This document shows, in pieces, positions 26,557-50,280 of a stretch of 64,000 bases of DNA. How positions within the stretch are numbered: position 1 is the first letter of the stretch; each line of letters begins with the position of its first letter. This DNA comes from a virus. The DNA lies in the IMG/VR virus record IMGVR_UViG_3300017917_000529, positions 1-64,000 of that record; one strand, written 5' to 3'. Under the pieces are notes generated by a model that had not been told where the DNA came from, searched no databases, and was given only the letters and a program-made list of their open reading frames with translations. A program made the position numbers and the translations under genes.

Positions 26557-27203
26557 TATACTTCTTCCAAGGATATGTTTACATCCCATAAATCATGTGT
26601 AGTAGATCCTCTGCGATTTACGGTGTATGAAAAATCAGATATAAAAACCTCTTTTACTTGTTGGTATTCTCCAAGTCTTCCTACTGTATTGTCTTGTTGT
26701 TTAAAATTTATATATTTGTCATATGCAATAAACAAATAAAATGATTTTGGATGATTTAAATACCAATCTAATAATTCGTTTCCACCTGCACCGCCATCAA
26801 CTGTATATCTTATCAATCCACTTTCTTCTTGTCCAGTATCTTCGTCAAAATTTGCAATTCCAGAAAACGATCTAGATGGTAAATTTTTCCAACTTATAGA
26901 AAAACTTTCTTTGTCTGCTATATAAAAAGATCTCATTTTTCCATTTATGGTTCTTTCTCTTTGTTCTAATCTATTGTTTTTAATATCAATTGGTCCACGA
27001 TTATGATCAGACAAAATAATAAAAGTAGATATTGTAGAAGGATCTCCTTCAAATTCAGACAGACTTGCCCCTATTTCATATCCATCTGGAACATGTGCTA
27101 AGCCATTTTCTGTTTCTATTAAACTACCAGGTAAATCTGCAAACAATAGGGCTTGAGGTCTACCATATTTTTTTCTACCAGAAAGATAATTTAAACTGGC
27201 CAT
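26556..27203 (-). CDS. Distal tail protein-like
   Basis: A 215-residue protein immediately downstream of the tape measure, the normal position of the distal tail (Dit) protein. SFSISWKNLPSRSF and a C-terminal strand set (VFISDFSYTVNRRG, LWDVNISLEEV) are consistent with a Dit/major-tail beta-sandwich. GGGGGAG precedes the ATG. No direct signature; position carries the call. Confidence 0.6.
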   Translation of the reverse strand: MASLNYLSGRKKYGRPQALLFADLPGSLIETENGLAHVPDGYEIGASLSEFEGDPSTISTFIILSDHNRGPIDIKNNRLEQRERTINGKMRSFYIADKESFSISWKNLPSRSFSGIANFDEDTGQEESGLIRYTVDGGAGGNELLDWYLNHPKSFYLFIAYDKYINFKQQDNTVGRLGEYQQVKEVFISDFSYTVNRRGSTTHDLWDVNISLEEV

Positions 27204-30200
27204 TATATTCTACTCCCCCTAATTCTTTGAGAATCTATTTGCTTAATCTTCATCATAACTGTATTAGCAATTTCATTAGGATTTGCATCAGATTTAACAT
27301 TAATACTTAGACTATAATTATACACGGAAGAAGACATTGGATTTTCACCTTTGTTTATTGCTCTTAAATTATCTACCCCAAATTTATCAACTGCAAATTT
27401 ACTTACAATAAACTCTCCAGGAGTTAACATTGCTGGCACGGTATCTGTACCAAATGCAAAACCACCAGAAGCAAATTTTTGAATCATTCCACCATTTGCC
27501 CTATAAACACCATATTTGCTAGTTATACCTGGAAGAACATTTATCTTACTTGCGGCAGCAAACGAAGCAGCAGATTTTACTGGTGCTAAAGTTGGACCTT
27601 TAGAACCCATTACACCCATGCTCATGTTTACACCTTTTAAGTTAGGTGCTGGTGTTGGAAAATATTTTGTTTTTGGTGGTGGAGTAGGATTTTTTGATTT
27701 AGGTTTTTTAGTATCATCTTTTCCAGGATCTGTGTCATCTTTTCCAGGATCTGTGTCATCACTTGAAGAACTGCTAGTTGTTAAATTTTGATTACTATTA
27801 TACTCATTCATTTTTTTGAGTATTTCATCCCAAGTACTACTTAATTGTTCTGCTGCTGTTTTTGATCTTGCTATCATGTCATTATACTTACCAGTAGCAA
27901 ACTCTGCTGCCTCTATTTTTGTTCTTTGAGTTTCCCACTCATCCTTTGTTAAGCCAGCAATTCTCAACCCTTCTAATTGTTGTTGAACATCTTCTTCTAT
28001 AATATCTAATCTTACTTGTGCCAATCTTGCTTGTTCTTGTAAAGGTGCAATAGTATCTTGCTCAATTCTATAATTTTGTTCTTTTAATGTTTTAATCTTT
28101 TGTTCTAATTGATCCCTAGTTAAACCTCCAGAAGTTAGTTTGTTTATTTGTGCATCTCTTGATGCTTCCATCCCTTGTCTTTGTTGATCTAATGCAGTTT
28201 GTGCTTCTGCTGCTCTGGCTTCTTGCACTGCTCTTGCTGCTGCATAAATATCTCCTTCTGCAAGTGCTTGAGATACTGACAATCTATCTCTTTCTTGTCT
28301 AGCAATAATATCATTTACTTTTTGTATTTTATCTAATGCTTCAAACTGTTTATTATATTTATCTCTAATCTCTTCTGCTTTGTCGTCTATAGTTTTAAGT
28401 CCATCTTCATATCTATCAATTTGATAATTGTTGGCTGCCTGAACTCTTTGTGCTATTTTTATTTGTTTTTCAGCATTATTAACTATTAATTTTTGTTTAT
28501 CTATTTCTCCCTTTTTTCCAAGTCTAATTATTTTTTCTTGAATTTCAAAATACTTCATTGCAGCATTATATCCTGGATCAAAAGCATCTGTATAGTTTCC
28601 TATTGCCATTGCATTTTTAAATTGTGCTGCTATTGCTTTTGCTCTAGAAGAAACAATGCTGGTTAAACTTTTATTAGTTTTTTCTGATGCAACTGCTGCA
28701 GCCAAAGCATCATCTTTAATTGCTTCATAAGCATCAGCAACTGGCATTCCAGCAGCAACTAATTTTTTAAATGCTTTTGTTTGATTTTCTGATTGAGCAA
28801 CAACCTTTTCTTGATCATTATAATAATCACCTAATGCTATATTATTTAATGCTGTTTGTAAAGTTTTAAAGTCTTTAAACATTCCTTTATACTTTTTATA
28901 ATCTTCTGGTGATAGTCCAGTAATAAAATCAATTGTATTTTGATTAGCACCCTGTTTTCTAAGTTTTTGTGCCAAACCACCAAATGCTAATGTCTCTTTA
29001 GAAAGTTTCTTTAAAGCCTTTCCAGAGGCATCCCAGCCTACTGTAAGTTCTTGTGTAGCCTTTCTTACATCTCTTAATTTCTTTACTATATCATCTAGTG
29101 GTGATGCTGTAGGTCCCCCGCCACCTGCACCAGTATCATCTTCTCCCTCTGTAGGAGAAATTGTTGCATCCATAGCAGATGTTTTCTTTTTGGCAAGTGC
29201 GTCTGCATATGCTTGTTTTTGTACTGGAAAAGAAGCATTACGAAACTTTTCTCCACCTCCAAGACTAGCGGGTTCACTTAACCATTTTTTAACATCTGGA
29301 TCTTGATTAAACGATGTCGAATCTTGTATAGACATAACAGTTGCAATTTCATTAGCATATACCTGTCTTTGATTTTGTGTTAACTTATCAAAATATTCTT
29401 TATCTATTGCACCAATATACTCTGGAGGCATGAAGGTTGTAAGAACATCGTACTCTAACTTTCCCTTATTTTCTTTTATTCCATCATAAACTTTCATTAA
29501 ATCTTTTTTGGCTTCTGGATTATTTTCGTAGTAATTAACTAAATATGCAATATCTAGTTCTCCTCCAGACATAGTAAGTTGTTCATTAAAATCTAAAATT
29601 TTCTGTGCTTCTTCGGCTGTACTTGCTGCCTCAACATTCATTAAAAATTTCTTTCTTGCTTCTTCGTCTACTTCACCTTTATCATTTAAAAATAGTGATG
29701 ATATCTGATCTATTCTTGCTGCTGATGCTCCTCCAAATTTTGTAACAATATTCATTACTGCATTCATTTGTTCTTTATTTTTACCAAAGGTATCTAACAA
29801 AGAAATCATTGTTCCTGGATCAATATTCTTATTTGCCATTTCCATGGTTAGTCTTATTTTTGCAAATTTATCTCCAGATGACGCAGCAATAGCATCTTGT
29901 GCTAATGGTACAACATCAGCAAACATTGTATCTTCATATGCTTTAGTTGCCATCTTATCAGCAGATGATTGCATAGCACCTTGTAATGCTGGATTATTTT
30001 TAAAATTTTCTTCAATTAATTTAGATGTTTCTTGTTGTTTATCTAATAAACTTTGTCTACTTGCTATATATTCATTTTGTAATCTTTCTGATTTTGCAGT
30101 ATCTCCTGCTGCTTTTGCAATTTCAATTCTTTTTTCATATTCCACCTGTAGCCCATCAAGCATTTGTTGATTTTGTTGTAAAGATATTGCGGCTAAGGCT

Positions 30201-33200
30201 GTTGTTCCACCTGCTGCTGCAGATACTCTTGCTTTTCTTTCTGTTAGACCCCTTACTCCACCTGCAATTGCCCCTATCGTACCTCCTACACCTGCACCAA
30301 TAGCGGTTCCAATACCTGGAATTATAGAACCAGCGGTTGCTCCAATTGCTGTACCTGCTCCTGCACCTGCTGCAACATTTCCAAGTAAACTTTTTGTATC
30401 TTTACCAGTAAACCTTGTTGCGGCTCCTGCTGCTCTAAAAGATTGTGCCAAACCTTTATTTGATTGTTCAACTAGTTGTACTCTAACCTTTAATGGATCT
30501 TTTACTAAGTTTTCTCCATTTGGACCTAATAATCTTTCTAATTGACCACTTACTTTAATTCCAAATTGTTGATTACCTAATTGATCTCCAATATTTAATG
30601 CAATAGATCTTGCTTCCTGTGCTGTTAATGCTCCAGATGTTACTGCTGTTGCTAATTGATTAGTTAATCCCGCTCCAGCACCTGCTGCTCCAGATACAGC
30701 AATATTTTTTCCAACTGCCTTTGTTAAAGCCTGTCCTTTTTCTCCAGCAACAAAAGATTCTCCAAATGTGGTTTTTCCTGTAGCGTTCTGATACTGTTTT
30801 ATACCCTCTGATCTTCTTCTACTCATTAATTCTGATGCTGAAACTCTACCAGCAAATTCTGATAAACCTTGTATACTCTTAGAAGATGCTTGAGTTTGAA
30901 GTGCTAAATCAATTGCAGCATCCCTTGCTTTATCCATTGCCATTCTTTGTTGTACATATAATCCAACAATTGCTCCAACTCCAACGGCAAGTGCACCAAA
31001 TTTGCTATTAAGCATAGGTAAAATAAATGACATAGCCATTAATGGCATCATTAATTTTTGAGATATATCACCAATTTTCCCTGGTGCCATAGCACCCATT
31101 GAAGCAGCCATAGATGCAACCATTGATGCAGAACCTAAGCCACCAGAAATTCTCTGTCCCATATTTCCTTTTGGATTTGAAGGTGTTGGCGGAACTGCTA
31201 CTCCCCTTTGTTGTTTTGCAATTTTTTCATTTTGCCTTCTAATTGATTTATCTATTGCCGTTATACCAGTTGATTTTCCATATAAAGAAGTTGCAGATTG
31301 AGATGCATACACTCCTTGAGTTACAGAGTTTCCTAGTTTCTGTCCTGCTAACTTAGCATCATCTACTTGATCCTCAAATCCAAGTACTGCTCCTCTTGCA
31401 AAATCTTTTCCAATTTGTTTCATTTTGGTTGATGGAGATTTTATTCCAAGTTCATCTTTTATTGTACTTTCAAGTATTCCAAATATTTTTCTTATTCTTT
31501 CACGAACCGAATTAATTACAAACTTATCAGCATCAGAACTAAGTTCTTTTCTTATTTGTTTTCTTTGTTCAGGACTTGCATAAGATTTATTAGATAGGAC
31601 AGCATTAGTACCTGGAATTCTCATACCTACAAGATCTTTGGATACTTGACCCCTATCCCCTCCTCTTTGTTTATTGCCTTTATCTTTTTTAGTTATATCT
31701 GCTTGTATTGTTGAAAAGGTGTTAGCAGACTTTTCTAAAAGTTTTCCAGCAGCACGAGTAGAATCTGAAGCACTACTTGATAGTGCCTGAGTCATTTCTA
31801 GTTTTATTATTTCATAAAATTTACTATCATCTACAACTGTTTTTCCTAATTTTCTTAATGAACTCTCTATGTTTTTTTGAATTTGCATCAAACCTTGCTC
31901 TTCTTTTGATCCAGGCCTTACATTATGCTCTTGAATTAAATATCTCATAAAACCTTTTTGGCCTACTGGAGAATTCATAAAATCTGCACTCTGTTCACCA
32001 GTCATCAAACCTTTATTAAATGCTGCTGGCATACCAAAAACTAAATTAGATTTAACAGACATTGGTTTATTTCCTCTGAATGCTTCTAAAATTGCTGGAT
32101 TAACATCTTTTCTTTTTTCAAGTTCTTTTAACATTTCCGTTCTTTGAGCCTGTGATATTTGGATACCTTTATCTCCATGTGATGCAATGAGACCAAAATT
32201 AGCAGGTCCTTTTTGAACTAATCCAGTAGCCATTAACTGTTTGTACCCACCCTCAGTAACATCGTCTATTTTCTTTTGTGCTTTTATCATCATGCTTTTA
32301 GTTACTTTGTACACACCATTTTCTAAATTAACGCCAACTTCCTCTAAAGCCCTTATTAATAAATCATCTATGTTTGCTATTTCACTTTGTAAATCTAAAG
32401 TTTTTTGTATAAGTTTTATTACATTATCATCAGTACTGGAAAATGTCATTCCCCTTACATTTAAAGGTCTTCCTTTAATGTATCCAGGAATATTGTTTGC
32501 AATCATTCCATTAATTAACGGTGCATATTTTTTAGCCATTGCTGATGGTATAACTGCTTCTCCTGGAGAAAGCATTGCTGGAACTTTGTCTCCAGTACCG
32601 CTTCCAGGAACACTTACAATTCCTTCTGCAAGTTTCATTGGTGGTTTTGGATTTTTTCTTGGACCTGCTAAACTAAAAGCGTTTTGTGCTGCAATTGCTT
32701 GTCTATATGAAGCGACTAAACTGTCAAGTGCTTGTTTTTCTGAAGTAAAACTTTGAGTAAGTTTCATATGTGTTTGATCTAATGAAGCGGCTACTGCTGC
32801 TGCTTGCATTTGTGACTGTGTTAAATAGTTTGTCTGTTCTCCAAGTTGAGTGCTTGATTGTCCTGCTCTATTAAATACACCCTTAATTGCTGTAAAACCT
32901 TTAATTATATTAGCAACTCCGTTTGCCAACAAACCAAAAGACATAATTGCTATAGGTCCTAATCCAGCAAGCAATGCTGTCATATATGTTATAAACTGTT
33001 TAGCACCATCACTTAAGTTGTTAAATTTGTCAAATACCTTTCCAAAAAATTCTATTACTGGAGTCAATGCTTTTAAGAATTCTGCTCCTACTGGTGCTAT
33101 GGCTGTTTTTAAATCTTGAACTTGTTTTTTAAATTTAAACATTGGAGATTCTTCAATTTTCTTTAATTCTCGTTCAGATAAAACTGCAAGTTCTTCAGTA

Positions 33201-34621
33201 GTTGCTTTTGTTAATTCAGCAACAGTTTGAGCCTGAGTTCCTTCTTTAATAACGTTTTGAAATAATGTTGATATACGAGCAAATTGAAACTTACCAAACA
33301 ACTGTTCAATTGCTTGTGCACGTTTCAATGGTTCTAACTCATCTAGGGCTGTTGCTAGTTCTAAAACAAGTTGTTTAACATCTCCTTTATTTGCATCCAC
33401 TATTGCTTTAATATTAATTCCCATACCAGACAAAAATTCAGATGCTCTTTTAGTTGGATTAATGATAGATGCCAAACCAGACTTTAATGCGTTTGCACCT
33501 TCTCCTGCTTGAATACCACCTTCACGCATAGCAGTCATAAAGAACGCTAAGTCTTGAACATCTCCACCAAGTTGTTTAATTACTGGTGCTGCTTTTGGAA
33601 TTGCCGTTGTTAGGTCATCAATATTTAATATTGTTTGGTTTTCAACTGCGTTCAAAAAGTCAATATTTTGTGCTAAATCTTCAGATGCAATTCCAAATGT
33701 AGAGGTTAAAGAAATAAGTGTATCTAAAGATTTTTGTTGATCAATACCACCAAGTACTGCTAACTTGCTAGCCTGAGCAACTTGTGCCATCAAATCTGCA
33801 CCCATCTTACCAGTTGCTGCAACATCAGCAGCCATTTTCATTGTATCTGCAACTGCTACACCATATTTTGTAAATTCGTTTGCAAGCATTTGAACATCTT
33901 TTAATGCTTTTGTAGTATCTGCTGTAGTTGTAAACATATCTCCATATACACGTTTAAATCTAATTGCTTGTTCTTCTAATTCCATAAAAGTTTTTGATGC
34001 AACAGAGCCAAAATACATTAAAGGAATAGTAAAACCAACCATAAGTTGACGTCCAGCCCACTGTGTATTTTTACCAAAATTTAATAAACTAGTAGAACCT
34101 TGTTTTAGTAATTGATTTAGTAATGCTTGACGTTGTGCAGCCATTGCTGTTTTTGTTGCGTAATCATTCATGTCAAGTGCAAGAGGTCTTAAAGATATTG
34201 CTTTTAATGCACCTGATGCATCTCTACCCATTTTAATATACTGAGTTTGTAAAGTTTTTACATTTTCTCTTGCAACTTTATTAATAGTATCAAATTCTGA
34301 TTTAAATAATTTACCAAAAGTTTTTGTAGAAGCACCAGCATATCTGAAGTACTCCTTCATAGTAAATTTATTTTTTTCTAAAGCATCATTAAAGGCATCA
34401 GTGGTTGTTCTAATTTTTTTCATTTCGGCAAGGAATTTGCCGCCAGCATTAACTTGATTAATTAAATTTTGTGCCATATTCTGGGATACTGCTGCACCAG
34501 CAGCACCAGTTTTGGCCATTGAGGTATGAAAGGCTGATATTTGACGTTGTAACGCCTTTAAATGTGATATTGCTTCGCCAGTATTAACATTAATATTAAT
34601 ATTGGATTCGATATCAGCCAT
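27203..34621 (-). CDS. Tail tape measure protein
   Basis: At 2472 residues this is the largest gene. It sets tail length and is later ejected. N-terminal coiled-coil helices lead into a region typical of phage tape measures (ALKDVQMLANEFTKYG, AAPVIKQLGG). Hydrophobic patches occur at about residues 540-570 and again centrally (MPLMAMSFILPML, VGAIVGLYVQ). Two copies of the tape-measure motif DKVPAMLSPGE / DTVPAMLTPGE occur near residues 670 and 2390. A long charged coiled coil fills the last quarter. At the usual 0.15 nm per residue the tail would be about 370 nm. It follows the tail chaperones. Confidence 0.95.
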   Translation of the reverse strand: MADIESNININVNTGEAISHLKALQRQISAFHTSMAKTGAAGAAVSQNMAQNLINQVNAGGKFLAEMKKIRTTTDAFNDALEKNKFTMKEYFRYAGASTKTFGKLFKSEFDTINKVARENVKTLQTQYIKMGRDASGALKAISLRPLALDMNDYATKTAMAAQRQALLNQLLKQGSTSLLNFGKNTQWAGRQLMVGFTIPLMYFGSVASKTFMELEEQAIRFKRVYGDMFTTTADTTKALKDVQMLANEFTKYGVAVADTMKMAADVAATGKMGADLMAQVAQASKLAVLGGIDQQKSLDTLISLTSTFGIASEDLAQNIDFLNAVENQTILNIDDLTTAIPKAAPVIKQLGGDVQDLAFFMTAMREGGIQAGEGANALKSGLASIINPTKRASEFLSGMGINIKAIVDANKGDVKQLVLELATALDELEPLKRAQAIEQLFGKFQFARISTLFQNVIKEGTQAQTVAELTKATTEELAVLSERELKKIEESPMFKFKKQVQDLKTAIAPVGAEFLKALTPVIEFFGKVFDKFNNLSDGAKQFITYMTALLAGLGPIAIMSFGLLANGVANIIKGFTAIKGVFNRAGQSSTQLGEQTNYLTQSQMQAAAVAASLDQTHMKLTQSFTSEKQALDSLVASYRQAIAAQNAFSLAGPRKNPKPPMKLAEGIVSVPGSGTGDKVPAMLSPGEAVIPSAMAKKYAPLINGMIANNIPGYIKGRPLNVRGMTFSSTDDNVIKLIQKTLDLQSEIANIDDLLIRALEEVGVNLENGVYKVTKSMMIKAQKKIDDVTEGGYKQLMATGLVQKGPANFGLIASHGDKGIQISQAQRTEMLKELEKRKDVNPAILEAFRGNKPMSVKSNLVFGMPAAFNKGLMTGEQSADFMNSPVGQKGFMRYLIQEHNVRPGSKEEQGLMQIQKNIESSLRKLGKTVVDDSKFYEIIKLEMTQALSSSASDSTRAAGKLLEKSANTFSTIQADITKKDKGNKQRGGDRGQVSKDLVGMRIPGTNAVLSNKSYASPEQRKQIRKELSSDADKFVINSVRERIRKIFGILESTIKDELGIKSPSTKMKQIGKDFARGAVLGFEDQVDDAKLAGQKLGNSVTQGVYASQSATSLYGKSTGITAIDKSIRRQNEKIAKQQRGVAVPPTPSNPKGNMGQRISGGLGSASMVASMAASMGAMAPGKIGDISQKLMMPLMAMSFILPMLNSKFGALAVGVGAIVGLYVQQRMAMDKARDAAIDLALQTQASSKSIQGLSEFAGRVSASELMSRRRSEGIKQYQNATGKTTFGESFVAGEKGQALTKAVGKNIAVSGAAGAGAGLTNQLATAVTSGALTAQEARSIALNIGDQLGNQQFGIKVSGQLERLLGPNGENLVKDPLKVRVQLVEQSNKGLAQSFRAAGAATRFTGKDTKSLLGNVAAGAGAGTAIGATAGSIIPGIGTAIGAGVGGTIGAIAGGVRGLTERKARVSAAAGGTTALAAISLQQNQQMLDGLQVEYEKRIEIAKAAGDTAKSERLQNEYIASRQSLLDKQQETSKLIEENFKNNPALQGAMQSSADKMATKAYEDTMFADVVPLAQDAIAASSGDKFAKIRLTMEMANKNIDPGTMISLLDTFGKNKEQMNAVMNIVTKFGGASAARIDQISSLFLNDKGEVDEEARKKFLMNVEAASTAEEAQKILDFNEQLTMSGGELDIAYLVNYYENNPEAKKDLMKVYDGIKENKGKLEYDVLTTFMPPEYIGAIDKEYFDKLTQNQRQVYANEIATVMSIQDSTSFNQDPDVKKWLSEPASLGGGEKFRNASFPVQKQAYADALAKKKTSAMDATISPTEGEDDTGAGGGGPTASPLDDIVKKLRDVRKATQELTVGWDASGKALKKLSKETLAFGGLAQKLRKQGANQNTIDFITGLSPEDYKKYKGMFKDFKTLQTALNNIALGDYYNDQEKVVAQSENQTKAFKKLVAAGMPVADAYEAIKDDALAAAVASEKTNKSLTSIVSSRAKAIAAQFKNAMAIGNYTDAFDPGYNAAMKYFEIQEKIIRLGKKGEIDKQKLIVNNAEKQIKIAQRVQAANNYQIDRYEDGLKTIDDKAEEIRDKYNKQFEALDKIQKVNDIIARQERDRLSVSQALAEGDIYAAARAVQEARAAEAQTALDQQRQGMEASRDAQINKLTSGGLTRDQLEQKIKTLKEQNYRIEQDTIAPLQEQARLAQVRLDIIEEDVQQQLEGLRIAGLTKDEWETQRTKIEAAEFATGKYNDMIARSKTAAEQLSSTWDEILKKMNEYNSNQNLTTSSSSSDDTDPGKDDTDPGKDDTKKPKSKNPTPPPKTKYFPTPAPNLKGVNMSMGVMGSKGPTLAPVKSAASFAAASKINVLPGITSKYGVYRANGGMIQKFASGGFAFGTDTVPAMLTPGEFIVSKFAVDKFGVDNLRAINKGENPMSSSVYNYSLSINVKSDANPNEIANTVMMKIKQIDSQRIRGSRI

Positions 34622-34646: not shown

Positions 34647-34967
34647 TTATGGTAAATTATTTAAAAGTGCTGCATCTGCTAATTTAACTCCAGATGCTTC
34701 TTCAATAATTTGATATACCGTTGGAAGATCCATATTTTCTTCTAACGCTGCCAAATCTTCTGCAAGTTCTGGCTTATATTGTTTCATTGCAATTTGAATA
34801 CATTCCATCAATATATTCATTGATTTTTCATTATCTTCTGCCACTGCTGCTACGCCTTCAAATTTTTTCATGAAAGGACGTAGTAGAGAAATCTTTAGTG
34901 GTCTTACTTTGATTTTTGTACCGTCAATAAGCGTAACTGTTTTTTCTTCGTTAACAGTAGTTGCCAT
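34647..34967 (-). CDS. Tail assembly chaperone, short form (G-like)
   Basis: A 106-residue chaperone of the tape measure. The pattern LIDGTKIKVRPLKISLLRPF, then NILMECIQIAMKQY, then DLPTVYQIIEEASGVKL is shared with the N-terminal half of the gene directly upstream. It ends 25 bases before the tape measure, which leaves no room for a frameshift extension. It has its own extended -10 and a strong AAGGAGG site, so it may be made in excess. Confidence 0.82.
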   Translation of the reverse strand: MATTVNEEKTVTLIDGTKIKVRPLKISLLRPFMKKFEGVAAVAEDNEKSMNILMECIQIAMKQYKPELAEDLAALEENMDLPTVYQIIEEASGVKLADAALLNNLP

Positions 34968-34993
34968 TATTCCTCCTTATAAGGTTAAATCTA

Positions 34994-35002
34994 ATTATAT
35001 CA
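34994..35002 (-). promoter_or_regulatory. Extended -10 promoter of the short chaperone
   Basis: TGA-TATAAT in the gap between the two chaperone genes, followed by a leader of about 26 bases with AAGGAGG. The element permits separate dosage of the short form. Confidence 0.65.
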
Positions 35003-35018
35003 CAAAACGACTCTTATT

Positions 35019-35702
35019 TTATATAGTAATTTCTTCATAATCTAAGCCATGTCCTATACCAAACCCTGCTTTCTTGGCTCTAGCACCTCTTAGATTTGTT
35101 ATATCGTTTGCGTCTTTTCCTTTATACAATACTCTTTTTTTCATTTCTTCCCAAGCATCACCTTTGTTATTTTCTTCTAAATCTACTCCTTGAATTGCTG
35201 CAAAAAACTTTTTATCACCATAATCTTGTTCTCTCTTATTTTCTATTATTGAAATTAGTTCTGGCATACACAAAGATATTTCTAATTCTTCATAATTTTT
35301 CCATGCACCTATGAGGAATGCTTCTGCCTCTAATTTTAATAAATCTAGTTCTTGCCAACTTGAACCACTACTTTCAGACTTTGCTTGATCCTCTACACTT
35401 TCTTCTTTATCAGTATTTATCTTGATGCCAGCAGAATATTCTAGTATTTTGTATACCGTTTTAATATCCAAATTATCCTCTATATCGTCTGTTGAACTAG
35501 AGATAGATGGATAGAATTGTTCCATAGCAATTCTGACGCATTCTACCATTATAGATATAGCCTCGTCTTCTGTTGTTTCTTTATTTATTTTTCCAAAATT
35601 ATCTAATATTTTTCTTAAATATTTTATTTTTGATGGAGATATTAATATTTTTGTACCATCAATTAATTGAATTATATTTTCTTCATAAGCCTTAGTTGCC
35701 AT
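35019..35702 (-). CDS. Tail assembly chaperone, long form (GT-like)
   Basis: A 227-residue protein. Its first about 105 residues are a diverged copy of the short chaperone (LIDGTKILISPSKIKYLRK, IMVECVRIAMEQF, DIKTVYKILEYSAGIKI). The rest is the T-like part: a linker, then SSWQELDLLKLEAEAFLIG and a charged tail ending GHGLDYEEITI. In most siphoviruses the long form arises by a ribosomal frameshift from the short gene. Here it is a separate intact gene that starts six bases after an extended -10. Confidence 0.82.
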   Translation of the reverse strand: MATKAYEENIIQLIDGTKILISPSKIKYLRKILDNFGKINKETTEDEAISIMVECVRIAMEQFYPSISSSTDDIEDNLDIKTVYKILEYSAGIKINTDKEESVEDQAKSESSGSSWQELDLLKLEAEAFLIGAWKNYEELEISLCMPELISIIENKREQDYGDKKFFAAIQGVDLEENNKGDAWEEMKKRVLYKGKDANDITNLRGARAKKAGFGIGHGLDYEEITI

Positions 35703-35717
35703 TAATCAATTATAGCA
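35703..35717 (-). promoter_or_regulatory. Leaderless extended -10 promoter of the long chaperone
   Basis: TGC-TATAAT (35717-35709), six bases, then ATG at 35702. The predicted transcript starts at the start codon. The T of the TG also belongs to the U-tract of the terminator immediately upstream. Confidence 0.7.
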
Positions 35718-35747
35718 AAAAGAAAAGCCCATCTTGTGAGATGGGCT
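35717..35747 (-). terminator. Intrinsic terminator after the major tail protein
   Basis: A perfect 9-bp stem (AGCCCATCT / AGATGGGCT, positions 726-734 and 739-747 of the 35 kb line) with a 4-base loop, followed on the minus strand by TTTTCTTTTT. It ends the abundant capsid/tail transcript just before the chaperone genes. Confidence 0.88.
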
Positions 35748-35763: not shown

Positions 35764-36402
35764 TTAAGCAATTGTACGGTCAACGATTTTTCCATACATA
35801 CCATTGTCTAATGGTAGCATACGGAATGTTACGTCGAACATAGATGCTGCATCACGTTTTGCGGATGCTACAACGTTTTCGATTGAAAGAGCACGATATC
35901 CAATATAGATACGTTCTTTATCGATTGAAGGATCGCCAGTTCCTGGACCAACGGCTACTAAACCACGTTCTAGAGGAACGTCGCCCAATTCACCTGAGTT
36001 GATATCAAAAACAGCACTGTTGTTTCCAATTCCTGTTCCAGTTAGTTCAGATAGATCATCTGTTTGTGCAGCAACTGCAACCAAAAGGTTTTCTAATGTT
36101 GCTTCTGCAAATGATGTTGCTAAAGAAACTTGCATGCCATCTTTGAAAAGACGAGCAACGTCAAGAACTTGATCAACTTGAACTTCACCGAAAGAAGGTT
36201 GGAATGTAAGTTCAATACCATTGCTGGTATAGCCTACGTTTGTAAAATCAGCATCATCAGCCAAAGTTTCTTTGTATGATGTTGTTGCTTCAAACGCTGG
36301 TAATCCGTTTCCAATTTCACCTGATAGTGCACCATCATTATATGTAAATAATGCTGCAGCACCAACTATGATGTTATTGGATGTTCCACGAGAATATGCC
36401 AT
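35764..36402 (-). CDS. Major tail protein
   Basis: A 212-residue protein in the classic position between tail-terminator genes and tail chaperones. It is beta-rich (NGIELTFQPSFGEVQVDQV, FDVTFRMLPLDNGMYGKI) and ends in a subunit-like fold. It uses GC-richer codons than its neighbours, like the capsid gene, as expected for a highly expressed gene. It has a long leader with a strong AGGAGAGGTG site and is followed by a strong terminator. These features support a highly made tube subunit. Confidence 0.8.
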   Translation of the reverse strand: MAYSRGTSNNIIVGAAALFTYNDGALSGEIGNGLPAFEATTSYKETLADDADFTNVGYTSNGIELTFQPSFGEVQVDQVLDVARLFKDGMQVSLATSFAEATLENLLVAVAAQTDDLSELTGTGIGNNSAVFDINSGELGDVPLERGLVAVGPGTGDPSIDKERIYIGYRALSIENVVASAKRDAASMFDVTFRMLPLDNGMYGKIVDRTIA

Positions 36403-44094: not shown

Positions 44095-47000
44095 TTATGT
44101 TGGAGTTGATATGTATTGTTTCCATGAAGAACCAACATATATTGGATTATCATTACTTTTAACCAATAATTGTCTTTCTCCATCATTTCCAACAACAATT
44201 TTATTGGTTCCCATATAAGTTTTATAAATATTTGCAGAAATATCTCCAAATTCTGAAGAAGATGTTTTAATTAATACCCCAAACCACAAGTATCCCTGAT
44301 TCCAAAAATCCCAATCAAACTCAAATGGATCTTCTGATCCTAAAACGTATTGCTCTTTAACTTCATCCCAAATTCTAGTAATAGAAGATTGTCTTTGTTG
44401 TAACCCAGTTAACTTATAATATGATATATTGTTATAAATTAAAGGACCATTTAGATTTATAGATCCAGTAAATGAATTAAATTGTAATGGGTTGGAAAAA
44501 GATATGTTTAAAAAATACCAATTTTTATTATCTATTACTGGATTAGCAACAAGGTTTCCATTTAAATAATATGAAATACCATTTTGCAATTGACCAGTTT
44601 GTGAATCTATCGCATATATCTTTGCTCTTTGACCAAAATTTCCATTTGAAACTATGTAAAAATTTATACTTGAGTTTATTGAATTAATTTGAAAAATTTG
44701 AGTTGGTGTATACGTAAAATTAAAAGTATCATTTTTTATTGCAACTTGAATATTTGATATAGAAAAAACAGAATCCTTGTTTTCATTTATTGGCATACTT
44801 ATACCTCTGTTTTGATATACATTAAAATCACCTTTTAGTTTGATGCCAGAATATCTAGTTAAGTGTAGATATGGGTTAGATTTTTTATAAATACTTACAG
44901 GATTTTTTCCTTTATAGTCATTATAGATTCCATTTTTAATATATGGATATAATTTGGTTCCAGATTTAGTATTAATTGGGGTTGGACTGTCTTCATTTAA
45001 TGATCTAGAAGATAGTTCTAAACTTTTGATTTTTATTTTTCTATTAATAGTAGACTTTGTTTTAAATTCTAAATAAATAGAAATAGCAAGATCTTCAAAG
45101 TTTACTGATGATGGTGGGTAAATAATTGTATCATTTTGAACTAAAAATATTGTATTTTGCCAGTCTGGATAATTTTCAAGATTTAGAATACCACTTTTTA
45201 ACGCTGGAGCAATTGTTGTAAAAGATTCAAACTTCTTATTAATTCCAGTTTCAACAAACTGAAAATTTATATAAGATTTAACTAAAGAATTTTCCGAATC
45301 ATATTCATATGTTAAATCAGATCTATTGTATTGTAAATCATCATAATTATTATATCCAGTGAAAAGAGAATTGTCAAGATATTCGTATGTTTTCTGTATC
45401 GGAGTTGAAAATTTTTCATCTAACTGTCCATAAGTCCATCCACTAGAATCTTCTACAACTTTAAAAATAGATGGGGAAGGAAAATTAATGTTATATTGAA
45501 GATAGTCTATTGAATACTTTTTCTTTCCAGATTGATCTGTTACATATTTTGCAAAATATTTTAATGGTACATAGTCTTCCCAATACCCAGAAGACCCTAT
45601 ATCTAAATAGTATTTGTTATATCTTATTGTTGGCTTTAGAGTATAACTTCCCAAATGACTTGATATGTGAGTGTGCATTGTGCTATTATCTTTTAATATA
45701 CCATTGCTATCAAAATGATTGTCAAATAGTTTATGATTATTTTTTGTTGAAAGACAAAAATCGTATAATTTTCCGTAAAAACATGAATTATTTGTATCAT
45801 TATTTAATAGTATAATCTTTAAAGAATTTTTACCACCAAAAAATGTTGCAACATCTTTTCCAAAATTGAGTACAAGTTTTTCAATATCTATTCCAATCTC
45901 TAAATACTCATTTATAGAATATTCTGATTCATGCAAAATAGTTTCATTATTAGAAACTTTAATTTTATAAATTATGTGTCCTTCATCTGTAAGGTATATA
46001 GAAAAGTAATCTGAATTATTTTTATTTTTAATCATAATTAAAGTAGAGTTCACCAATTCACTTGTTTTAGCAATAATGTGAAATGATTTTATATCATCAT
46101 TTAAAATATTAAAACTCTCAAATGAAAAAGATGAATTTTGATCTATAAAAGTTACAAATTTATTTTCTTCATTTTGCAAACTCTTTAATTCTTCATACCA
46201 AGAATCTATATCATCAATATCTATATTTGGTAAAGAGTATTCTATATTTGAAATATAACTTTGATTTATATCCAAATTATCATATTTTCCTTGTTTCCAT
46301 TTTCCAATATTTGGATATTCATAATTTGTTCCATAATTAGAAAAAGAGTAGTCTATAAATGCTGACTTTCCACTATATGATGAATCGACTGATTCAAAAG
46401 ATTTAACTGCTTGTCCATATACCCATCTTTTTTTTGCAGTTATTTCTGGAACAATGTATGGGTATATAGCAAAACAATCTATTTCAAATGGATAAATATT
46501 TTCATAACAATAAAAACCTAACCAATCTTGATCTTTTTCTAAAACATCTAATTTAGATGGTAAAGAAATGCTACTATTATCTATACTTATATCAATAACT
46601 TTTTCTCCATTTAAAAATAAAAACATTTTATTATTAGAATACGATATTTGTATCAGCATTGGTCGTGACCACTCTTCAACATATACTGATTTAAAATTAT
46701 TATCAACAACTAAAGTTAAAAAACAATCATCTGCGTATAAACCATCATTTGAAGATATTGGACCAAATATTTTTTTACTATCCAATGTATCAACATTAAA
46801 TCTCAACCACATTTCTACAGTATAAGTATTATATCTTCCAGACTCATTCAAAAATCCAAATCCTGGAAAAATAATTGATGGTTTAGAAGTTTCGTCTTCA
46901 TTTATATTAGGAAATAATTTTGTTACATTTGATGCACCATAAACTAAAGGCACTCCAAAATTTTGTGCATAAATTTTATTATTTTTTACTAAATAATATC

Positions 47001-47694
47001 CATAATTAGTGTCTGATCCATAAGATTTTGCTAAAATACCTTGTGAGTTTTCTATAGATATGTTTGATGGAATATCTACAATTTCTGAGCCCATTGAGTA
47101 ATTATTAAATTCTTCTGACCACTGACCAAATGACAAACCGTTAAGAAAAAATTCATATGCTTCGCTTCCATTTTCACTTGCAGAATATCCTATTTTAATA
47201 ACTATTTGTAATGGTGTATTTTGATTAATATTTTGAAATGTTTCTGATAGTAAAAACCATTTTCCACTTACATTTATTGGAACACTTTTTAAAATTTCTA
47301 CTGGTTGACCACTTAGTACATCTGTATATTTAAAACCTATTGCAACTGAATTTAAATGTACACTTTCTGAATAAAAATAACACGAAAGAGCAAAAGTATC
47401 TAATTCTTGATTAATATCAGATAGATTTATTATGTTGTCACTTGTTAATATTGCTACCTTGTTTTCTGTAGTAGATGGTATTCCAACTACTTTATAAAGA
47501 GATTCTGAAATAAAGGGTTGGCTAGATAAACTTATTTCTTCTGATACTATCGCATCTGATATAGTCCATAAACTAATATCTTTATCTGTTTCATCTAACA
47601 AACCAACATAATCAGATTTATCATCTAGTGCCCAAAGGGATATTGGATGCTCTGAAAAAATTTTTTCTGCATAAAGATTTGATGGGTTAGACAT
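44095..47694 (-). CDS. Large virion appendage protein with LamG-like domain
   Basis: 1199 residues, beta-rich throughout, with no enzyme motif. A concanavalin/LamG-type sandwich is visible around residues 290-410 (YTVEMWLRFNVDTLDS, FLFLNGEKVIDISID). The segments RWVYGQAV and GWTYGQLDEKF show a repeated WxYGQ element between domains. Such proteins bind carbohydrate and decorate tails or capsids. Placement ahead of portal, outside the tail-tip cluster, could mean a head-associated or long side fibre. Function inferred. Confidence 0.6.
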   Translation of the reverse strand: MSNPSNLYAEKIFSEHPISLWALDDKSDYVGLLDETDKDISLWTISDAIVSEEISLSSQPFISESLYKVVGIPSTTENKVAILTSDNIINLSDINQELDTFALSCYFYSESVHLNSVAIGFKYTDVLSGQPVEILKSVPINVSGKWFLLSETFQNINQNTPLQIVIKIGYSASENGSEAYEFFLNGLSFGQWSEEFNNYSMGSEIVDIPSNISIENSQGILAKSYGSDTNYGYYLVKNNKIYAQNFGVPLVYGASNVTKLFPNINEDETSKPSIIFPGFGFLNESGRYNTYTVEMWLRFNVDTLDSKKIFGPISSNDGLYADDCFLTLVVDNNFKSVYVEEWSRPMLIQISYSNNKMFLFLNGEKVIDISIDNSSISLPSKLDVLEKDQDWLGFYCYENIYPFEIDCFAIYPYIVPEITAKKRWVYGQAVKSFESVDSSYSGKSAFIDYSFSNYGTNYEYPNIGKWKQGKYDNLDINQSYISNIEYSLPNIDIDDIDSWYEELKSLQNEENKFVTFIDQNSSFSFESFNILNDDIKSFHIIAKTSELVNSTLIMIKNKNNSDYFSIYLTDEGHIIYKIKVSNNETILHESEYSINEYLEIGIDIEKLVLNFGKDVATFFGGKNSLKIILLNNDTNNSCFYGKLYDFCLSTKNNHKLFDNHFDSNGILKDNSTMHTHISSHLGSYTLKPTIRYNKYYLDIGSSGYWEDYVPLKYFAKYVTDQSGKKKYSIDYLQYNINFPSPSIFKVVEDSSGWTYGQLDEKFSTPIQKTYEYLDNSLFTGYNNYDDLQYNRSDLTYEYDSENSLVKSYINFQFVETGINKKFESFTTIAPALKSGILNLENYPDWQNTIFLVQNDTIIYPPSSVNFEDLAISIYLEFKTKSTINRKIKIKSLELSSRSLNEDSPTPINTKSGTKLYPYIKNGIYNDYKGKNPVSIYKKSNPYLHLTRYSGIKLKGDFNVYQNRGISMPINENKDSVFSISNIQVAIKNDTFNFTYTPTQIFQINSINSSINFYIVSNGNFGQRAKIYAIDSQTGQLQNGISYYLNGNLVANPVIDNKNWYFLNISFSNPLQFNSFTGSINLNGPLIYNNISYYKLTGLQQRQSSITRIWDEVKEQYVLGSEDPFEFDWDFWNQGYLWFGVLIKTSSSEFGDISANIYKTYMGTNKIVVGNDGERQLLVKSNDNPIYVGSSWKQYISTPT

Positions 47695-48252: not shown

Positions 48253-50280
48253 CTATCTTTTTATTTCACAAGAATCAGTTGTACAGTACATTTCTCCCTG
48301 TGCTTCTAGGTTTTTTATTCCATCGTATATTGCATCCCAATTTATTTTGGATATCTTACCTATATAACTATTATACTCTTCCTCTGTAATTTCTGTATAT
48401 GGTTGTTGAGGATATACGGTGTTGCCCATTGGTAAAAATGATACTGCTTTTAATTGTCCTTCATACATATGTAGTGCTGGAGCAACATGCTTGGATTCTT
48501 TTTCTTTGTCAAATGACAATGTTACAGATACTCCATTATCAGACCAATATTTTTGAGCAGTTGCTGCAAGAGCAATTTTTTCAAAAAGAGTTACATCTTT
48601 TTCGGCTCTAGAGTGTTCTGAGGCAATTGGAAAATACACAACTTTAGTATTTGCTGAAACAACATCATCTTCAATTTTATAACCAGCAGCCTTAAATAAA
48701 TGTATCATTGGATCTGATTCTCCAAATCTAATTGCTCTCATAAAGAATTTACCACCTGGACCCCAATGAACTCCTGGAGTTGCACCAGAAAGAATGCTTA
48801 CGCTACCTGATGGTTTTACTGTTGTAACTCTAATTGATTCACGGACACATAGCCACTCTGAGTATTGATGATCATATTTTTTAATATTTGAATATCCTTC
48901 ATCCATCCATTCACGAACTGTTGGCAAACCATGTTTATCTGAGAATGATGCAATGCCAGTTAGAGAAGTTCCAATTCTTCTATTTCGTTGCATAATTCCA
49001 TTTGTTTGTTGCCAATGTGTTGGAACAAGTGTTACCGTTTTACCATAAAGGTATGCAAATTTTAGTGTTCTTAAAAAATCTTCTTTATCTTCATGTCTAT
49101 TTAGATGAACCTCAACCAAAGTACACAATTCGTATGACTCTAGCGGTTGTTCAGCACATGGATTAAAACCCATAACTCTATAGTCTTTTCCATCTGCAGG
49201 ATCTTTTAATCTTCCATAATTTCTAGCAACATCTAACCATATAAAACCTGGTTCTCCATTGTTTACAATCAAATCAACATAATCTTCATATTTTGTTCCA
49301 ACTGTTGCTGAAATAGAATTATTTGACATCCATGCCCAACCTGGATTTTCTGAATCAAAAGAGTTTCTTTCAGGAAAAACATCTGGATTTTTTAAATTAA
49401 TAAAATCTTTATCTCCAGAAGAACCTAATGCTAATGTTGCTGATCTACGAACATTTCCTGCAACAACACATGTTCCAATTAAATTAACAATATCTACTAT
49501 TGCCCTAGAATCAAACTTTTCTTCAGTTCTACTACCAATAACTTTATTGATTTGTTCATGTAGTTTAATTAATGGTGCTGGACCCGATGCAACTCCACCA
49601 AAGCCTTTAATAGGTGCACCAAATGGTCTAATTAAATCATAATTAAATTTTTGTTTATGTTGTCCTGATCTAAGATATGAGTTTAATAATAATCTAACAG
49701 ATTCTACCCAACCCTCTCTTGTATCTGGAATTTCATAAATATTTTCTTCGTCTAATGGTTTATAAATAGAAAATTCTTTTTCTTGTCCAACGGTATCAAA
49801 ACCTACACCTATACCAAGCATCAAAGCATCCATTACCCATGCAAATAATGCTCCTGGATCATTTCTATCTAAGTCTTTTGTAGATACCATTGCACAATTT
49901 TGAAGTGCTGCTGAGTTTCTTTTTTCCATAGTCATAGGAGTTCCAAAAGCCCACATTCCACGACCTGGAGGGGTCCACTTAAGGTTAAACATACGATCAT
50001 ATGCTTCTTGGGCTGATTTTTGTGCTTTATAGTCATTCCAAGGCAATCTGTTTTCTTTTGCATGATTCTTTTGTACTGAATACATGCCTTCGATTACACG
50101 TTTACAAACCTCATACCATCTTTCTTTAGTTCCATTATCTTTTACTCTAGAATAAGTTCTAATAAAAGTTATTTCTCCTAATGAATTATTACCAGCGTCA
50201 ACAAAACCAAATGGTGATGGTTTGATACTATACTTTTGTATGAAGTCTTCTGGAAGTTTGAAACTAAAAAATTCTGACAT
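48253..50280 (-). CDS. nrdJ: Class II (B12-dependent) ribonucleoside-triphosphate reductase
   Basis: A 675-residue monomeric enzyme that makes dNTPs for phage replication. The active-site loop FNPCAEQPLE (about residue 372) gives the thiyl-radical Cys and Glu. The reducing Cys pair is NCAMVST near residue 127 and ELCTLVEV after the loop. The C-terminal shuttle pair is CTTDSC. This is the Lactobacillus RTPR type that needs adenosylcobalamin and no oxygen. The gene has its own extended -10 and AGGAG site. It sits among virion genes, not in the replication block. Confidence 0.95.
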   Translation of the reverse strand: MSEFFSFKLPEDFIQKYSIKPSPFGFVDAGNNSLGEITFIRTYSRVKDNGTKERWYEVCKRVIEGMYSVQKNHAKENRLPWNDYKAQKSAQEAYDRMFNLKWTPPGRGMWAFGTPMTMEKRNSAALQNCAMVSTKDLDRNDPGALFAWVMDALMLGIGVGFDTVGQEKEFSIYKPLDEENIYEIPDTREGWVESVRLLLNSYLRSGQHKQKFNYDLIRPFGAPIKGFGGVASGPAPLIKLHEQINKVIGSRTEEKFDSRAIVDIVNLIGTCVVAGNVRRSATLALGSSGDKDFINLKNPDVFPERNSFDSENPGWAWMSNNSISATVGTKYEDYVDLIVNNGEPGFIWLDVARNYGRLKDPADGKDYRVMGFNPCAEQPLESYELCTLVEVHLNRHEDKEDFLRTLKFAYLYGKTVTLVPTHWQQTNGIMQRNRRIGTSLTGIASFSDKHGLPTVREWMDEGYSNIKKYDHQYSEWLCVRESIRVTTVKPSGSVSILSGATPGVHWGPGGKFFMRAIRFGESDPMIHLFKAAGYKIEDDVVSANTKVVYFPIASEHSRAEKDVTLFEKIALAATAQKYWSDNGVSVTLSFDKEKESKHVAPALHMYEGQLKAVSFLPMGNTVYPQQPYTEITEEEYNSYIGKISKINWDAIYDGIKNLEAQGEMYCTTDSCEIKR

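Follow-up and report, generated by a model that had tools for sequence, protein, structure and literature searches.

Two paralogous tail chaperone genes in probable replacement of a programmed -1 frameshift in a clade of siphovirus-type phages

The window (the whole stretch of DNA that was analysed, 64,000 nucleotides) covered 64.0 of the 68.8 kb of the virus record and had a G+C content of 32%. Its virion genes were carried on the minus strand, and all features of the locus described here lie on that strand. In downstream order, the genes were those of the major tail protein, a putative long tail chaperone, a putative short tail chaperone and the tape measure protein. The major tail protein gene (35764..36402, 212 aa), upstream of the cassette, matched PHROG 2175 (E 3.2e-30) and PHROG 885, major tail protein (E 0.0046); its product was 41-44% identical to the annotated major tail proteins of the Stanwilliamsviridae. 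An intrinsic terminator was located between this gene and the long chaperone gene at 35716..35746 (GCCCATCTCACAAGATGGGC, a hairpin and a T-rich run, dG about -12 kcal/mol). The long gene (35019..35702) encodes a one-frame, GT-like fusion of 227 aa, with a G domain at about residues 1-100 and a T domain at about residues 111-227, and an extended -10 box, TGCTATAAT (35709..35717), was found 6 nt 5' of its ATG. The short gene (34647..34967) encodes 106 aa, comprises the G-like domain only and has lost the ancestral slip site. It is preceded by an extended -10 box, TGATATAAT (34994..35002), and by the Shine-Dalgarno sequence AAGGAGG (34972..34978). Directly downstream, 25 nt after the short-gene stop, starts the tape measure gene (27203..34621, 2472 aa), which was assigned from its position, its length and its synteny with the annotated tape measure genes of three other loci (L163-L165). 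Elsewhere in the window, a 1199-aa ORF (44095-47694) without PHROG or Pfam match was noted; it is flanked by the portal-side genes on one side and by a gene for a class II ribonucleotide reductase (48253-50280) on the other.

The original prediction had described the 227-residue gene as a G-like domain plus a T-like tail in one frame, and the 106-residue gene as a repeat of the G-like part only. Both ORFs were recovered exactly as described. In a search within the record itself, the short protein was aligned to residues 1-96 of the long protein with 38% identity (E 1.8e-20). The N-terminal regions of both proteins matched PHROG 10504 (E 3.9e-19 and 3.4e-17) and the C-terminus of the long protein matched PHROG 10474 (E 1.3e-14). 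Since the halves of the long protein match different PHROGs, the G and T parts are separate ORFs in other phages. In the long gene, the T part (SGSSWxxLDL...) runs on in frame past a linker of variable length. Weak matches to PHROG 1932, tail assembly chaperone, were obtained in the profile search (E 0.01-0.085). The searches revealed no direct homology with lambda gpG or with chaperones of solved structure; profile searches of PDB and Pfam gave no meaningful match. The closest isolates of the chaperones and major tail protein of the window were the Stanwilliamsviridae, and alignment to known G/T proteins, which had been proposed as a check, established homology to the annotated chaperones of this family. 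Gene order, domain make-up and this homology suggest that the cassette acts like G/GT chaperones.

Loci were collected by scanning viral contigs with the long gene, the short gene and divergent relatives as queries, and phage isolates were added, which gave 410 loci. Several of these are overlapping pieces of one contig, and counts are therefore also given as distinct DNAs. Loci were classified by reading frame. The layout with a fused long gene and a short gene was found in 304 of the 410 loci (145 distinct DNAs, from many metagenomes). A single G gene with T in the -1 frame was found in 95 loci (75 distinct DNAs), among them those of the Stanwilliamsviridae, which infect Streptomyces; frameshift joins are annotated in Yaboi, NiceHouse and Francesca. 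The other 11 were loci cut by a contig end, a locus with a broken frame (L130), an isolate with a G that the search missed because of its divergence (L249) and the window itself, present twice. None of the 410 loci carried both a frameshifting and a fused gene. A scan of bacterial and archaeal genomes for relatives yielded none, hence no host or prophage match. Given its presence in 145 distinct DNAs, the two-gene layout is due neither to chance nor to assembly error. Single-nucleotide errors can fake a fusion, and frames are disrupted in two loci (L130 and L346), but the conservation of an identical layout across so many metagenomes refutes an assembly artefact or a mutated frameshift cassette in a single contig, for which the remaining probability is negligible. 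In L346 (263-1322), the long gene is disrupted at its end and continues into the short gene, which may be an assembly error. Another locus (L271:1719-2500) holds a 218-codon open frame, class I methyltransferase-like by motif, between the long and short genes; as it is inserted between them, the two genes are separable units.

The canonical heptamer of the frameshift-type G genes sits in a KLNDP motif (GAC CCA AAC), and in many of these genes the -1 frame opens right at it. An in-frame slip heptamer was present in 70 of the 75 distinct frameshift-type genes (65 CCCAAAC, 3 CCCAAAT, 1 GGGAAAA and 1 GGGAAAC). The five exceptions were Streptomyces phages whose G ends in KLNDPE. The site was read as CCCGGAA in the two that were inspected (Coruscant and Braelyn), and in Coruscant T lies in the -1 frame as in the other frameshift-type loci. 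In the short genes the motif has decayed, to KLADAA in the window and to KLSDP or KLND remnants in L032 and L044. No slip heptamer was found in the last 32 codons of 123 of 142 short genes, and none was conserved. Past the short-gene stop, the -1 frame was open for a median of 5 codons (142 loci), which bears out the prediction that the short gene, with its 25-base gap before the tape measure gene, is followed by no T frame. The window short gene contains TTTAAAT in frame near its end, and a shift there would lead to an immediate stop.

Frameshifting might still contribute, either through a -1 slip in the long gene that adds to the pool of short protein or through slippage in the short gene that yields a variant. 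In-frame TTTAAAT or TTTAAAC does occur near the end of some short genes, that of the window included, and a minority of long genes have TTTTTTA/G in their T part. Such a contribution is nevertheless very improbable: no heptamer lies near the junction in 87 of 144 long genes and none is conserved, most short genes lack one at their end as well, and a -1 shift there soon meets a stop and enters no T frame. In place of the programmed frameshift of G/GT chaperones, the locus thus has a one-frame fusion, no conserved slip site and no T frame. That G and GT are separate paralogous genes here, as first proposed, agrees with the paralogy, with the conserved two-gene layout and with the loss of the slip site.

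Expression signals were compared across distinct upstream regions. The long gene was preceded by an extended -10 box in 92 of 93 of them, at a spacing of 5-9 nt from the start codon in 89. A strong Shine-Dalgarno sequence was present in two and missing from the other 91. A terminator-like hairpin was found within 100 nt upstream of the long gene in all 93, and in 2 of 93 when the sequences were shuffled. For the short gene, a -10 box was found in 82 of 84 distinct upstream regions, mostly 24-31 nt from the start, and a strong Shine-Dalgarno sequence in 80; in the window, it has a perfect TATAAT, a leader of about 20 nt and a strong Shine-Dalgarno sequence. Where a box was present, it was a perfect TATAAT in 82 of 82 short-gene upstream regions and in 26 of 92 long-gene ones. 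The frameshift-type G genes resemble the short gene (box in 33/33, Shine-Dalgarno sequence in 31/33, terminator in 29/33). No terminator was found between the long and short genes or after the short gene. Codon usage was nearer to that of the major tail protein gene in the short than in the long gene at 138 of 139 loci.

Leaderless genes are common in Actinobacteria, where they carry a TANNNT box about 12 bp before the start codon and no Shine-Dalgarno sequence (PMC3160421, PMC3898074). The first T of the box of the window long gene is located 12 nt upstream of the start, and no Shine-Dalgarno sequence is present. The long-gene transcript is predicted to be leaderless and to start at about 35702, and the short-gene transcript would be leadered, with a start at about 34987. 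The original prediction of a leaderless promoter for the long form and a leadered, strong Shine-Dalgarno one for the short form is matched by a signal pattern that is conserved across the distinct upstream regions, and its view that such signals probably set the ratio of the two forms is likewise supported. Less long than short form is the likely set point, as suggested by the poorer -10 boxes and poorer codons of the long gene and by analogy. Leaderless mRNAs of Mycobacterium tuberculosis are not clearly translated less well, without overall mRNA:protein difference (PMC3898074), so that the direction assigned to the ratio depends on the quality of the -10 boxes, the codons and analogy.

The leaderless start could instead serve a temporal specialisation: it would place the long gene under another translational regime (e.g. 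70S initiation, late infection), and the ratio would be set post-translationally or by complex assembly. The leaderless and leadered genes of M. tuberculosis do differ between growth and starvation while showing no overall difference in mRNA:protein (PMC3898074), and a promoter of its own, insulated by a terminator, precedes the long gene in every distinct upstream region (93 of 93). This explanation is improbable, as the consistently degraded -10 boxes and the poorer codons of the long gene are easier to reconcile with a low set point than with a timing switch.

Similar signals were observed elsewhere on the minus strand of the window. Promoter-like extended -10 boxes (TGnTATAAT) precede many genes, with no obvious -35 box. 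At two gene starts (59423 and 58863), TGATATAAT is located exactly 6 nt before the ATG without Shine-Dalgarno sequence, which makes these genes leaderless candidates. Their PHROG matches were a weak one to head decoration (E 0.0088) and one to a family of unknown function.

In the G-domain tree, the long-gene G domains (long-G) formed one clade (99/94) and the short genes another (100/100), which points to a single origin. The short clade was grouped with the frameshift-type G (100/92 in a second tree) and long-G was placed outside. One frameshift-type locus (L409, slip site GGGAAAC, cassette at L409:2501-3171) has a G that is sister to the short clade (98/98) and a T that is nearest to the T of the fused long genes. 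It appears to be the nearest extant relative of the pre-duplication state and is the strongest candidate for that state. A clade of short plus long was not rejected by the topology test (p-AU 0.256 and 0.176), and the tree does not date the duplication relative to the split from the frameshift group. In the frameshift-type phages, conservation was higher in G (0.81) than in T (0.70). In the long gene it was lower in G (0.52) than in T (0.68), and it was 0.73 in the short gene. These values suggest that constraint shifted after the split and that long-G is fast evolving.

Instead of arising by duplication within the lineage, the long gene may have been acquired from another phage and set before an existing G gene that then lost its T. 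The branching of long-G outside the short and frameshift group in the best tree would be expected from such an acquisition, and so would the single clades formed by the long and the short genes. Against it, the T of the long gene is closest to the T of the same phage group, L409 included, the short plus long clade survived the tree test, and relaxed evolution of long-G would account for its long branch. Acquisition is on balance doubtful, and duplication within the lineage is preferred, although the position of long-G outside the frameshift group is not what a simple late duplication would lead one to expect.

Evolutionary distances among short genes were found to track those of the tape measure (partial r 0.78; major tail protein -0.12), and the distances of the long-gene T tracked those of the major tail protein (0.66). 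These correlations were rejected as proof of binding, as gene adjacency (and recombination) could yield them. They suggest a pairing of the short form with the tape measure and of T with the major tail protein. The direction is that of the lambda model, where the tape measure is covered by G and the tail tube protein is brought in by T (PMC5009743), and gene neighbourhood may contribute to it.

The locus was interpreted, with considerable confidence, as a chaperone cassette of the lambda G/GT type in which the -1 programmed frameshift has been replaced by two dedicated genes. This interpretation builds on the architecture, paralogy, conservation, slip-site loss, signals and codon bias that were observed; event order, transcripts, ratio and protein roles would be as follows. 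The ancestral cassette would have consisted of a terminator, a TATAAT box, a leader, a Shine-Dalgarno sequence, G, a CCCAAAC slip site, T in the -1 frame and the tape measure gene. Duplication of the cassette would have been the first step. The upstream copy would then have turned into GT fused in frame, with loss of its leader and Shine-Dalgarno sequence, so that the -10 box abuts the ATG. The downstream copy would have retained the leadered, strong Shine-Dalgarno start but neither the slip site nor T. The long form would be made only from its own weak leaderless promoter, because the terminator would halt major-tail-protein transcripts and any RNA that reads through would offer ribosomes no site for the long gene. 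The short form and the tape measure protein would be made from the strong promoter and also by read-through of the long transcript. More short than long form would be expected, as lambda needs (G:GT about 30:1; PMC5009743). In this scheme, the tape measure would be coated by the short protein, and T on the few long molecules would bring in the major tail protein. It is probable, if less firmly held, that a whole phage clade has swapped recoding for a hard-wired ratio device acting at transcription and initiation, in which the minor long form is driven by a weak leaderless promoter insulated by the terminator and the major short form by a strong promoter with leader and Shine-Dalgarno sequence, and that the two G domains were thereby freed to diverge into a heterotypic chaperone pair.

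The G/GT frameshift is a textbook case of recoding. Its replacement by gene duplication in a large environmental phage group would be a rare natural case. The ancestral frameshift state and the derived two-gene state are both found in close relatives, which makes the purpose of the frameshift testable. It can be asked whether the frameshift fixes a ratio only, or also couples the synthesis and the sequence identity of the two forms. The conserved pair of leaderless and leadered starts probably sets stoichiometry. For annotators, the layout provides a rule to find chaperones where a slip site is absent.

Like gpG and gpGT of lambda, the two proteins are a short and a long form with a common N-terminal domain, to which the long form adds T, and they are encoded between the major tail protein and the tape measure. 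By analogy, the assembly role and the need for an excess of short form are likely to be the same. The lambda long form results from a -1 slip in one gene, whereas here there are two genes and no slip site, and the common domain has diverged to 38% identity. The G/GT frameshift has been described as conserved across a wide range of long-tailed phages, T4 being the exception (PMC5009743). The phages of the Stanwilliamsviridae (Coruscant, Yaboi, Faust, Braelyn, Gilson, Wofford, Tomas and Beuffert) have direct homologues of G and T in the same synteny; they differ in that G is present once and T is reached in the -1 frame at a KLNDP slip site. Some Microbacterium phages of cluster EA are said to lack an evident frameshift, but the subclusters are described as having two ORFs, not a fused long gene with a paralogous short gene (PMC7302621). 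In the literature searched, where the work of Vladimirov and co-workers is represented by citations, no description of the fused-plus-short layout in siphoviruses was found, nor any of the conserved leaderless/leadered promoter pair. In some T4-like phages, the short and the long chaperone are reported to have genes of their own (Vladimirov, Gautam and Davidson 2022, cited in PMC10885494). As that layout is described in the citing paper, a separate short gene and a fused long gene without frameshift are common to both. The T4-like phages are contractile-tailed, unlike the siphovirus-type clade studied here, which has close frameshifting relatives and the conserved leaderless/leadered pair. The original prediction had implied that the arrangement is exceptional; the layout itself was upheld, but it is less unprecedented than that, since some T4-like phages are reported to do likewise. 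Split short and long chaperone genes had thus been reported before in some T4-like phages, and what is new is their occurrence in a large siphovirus-type clade, with frameshifting sisters and a conserved promoter pair.
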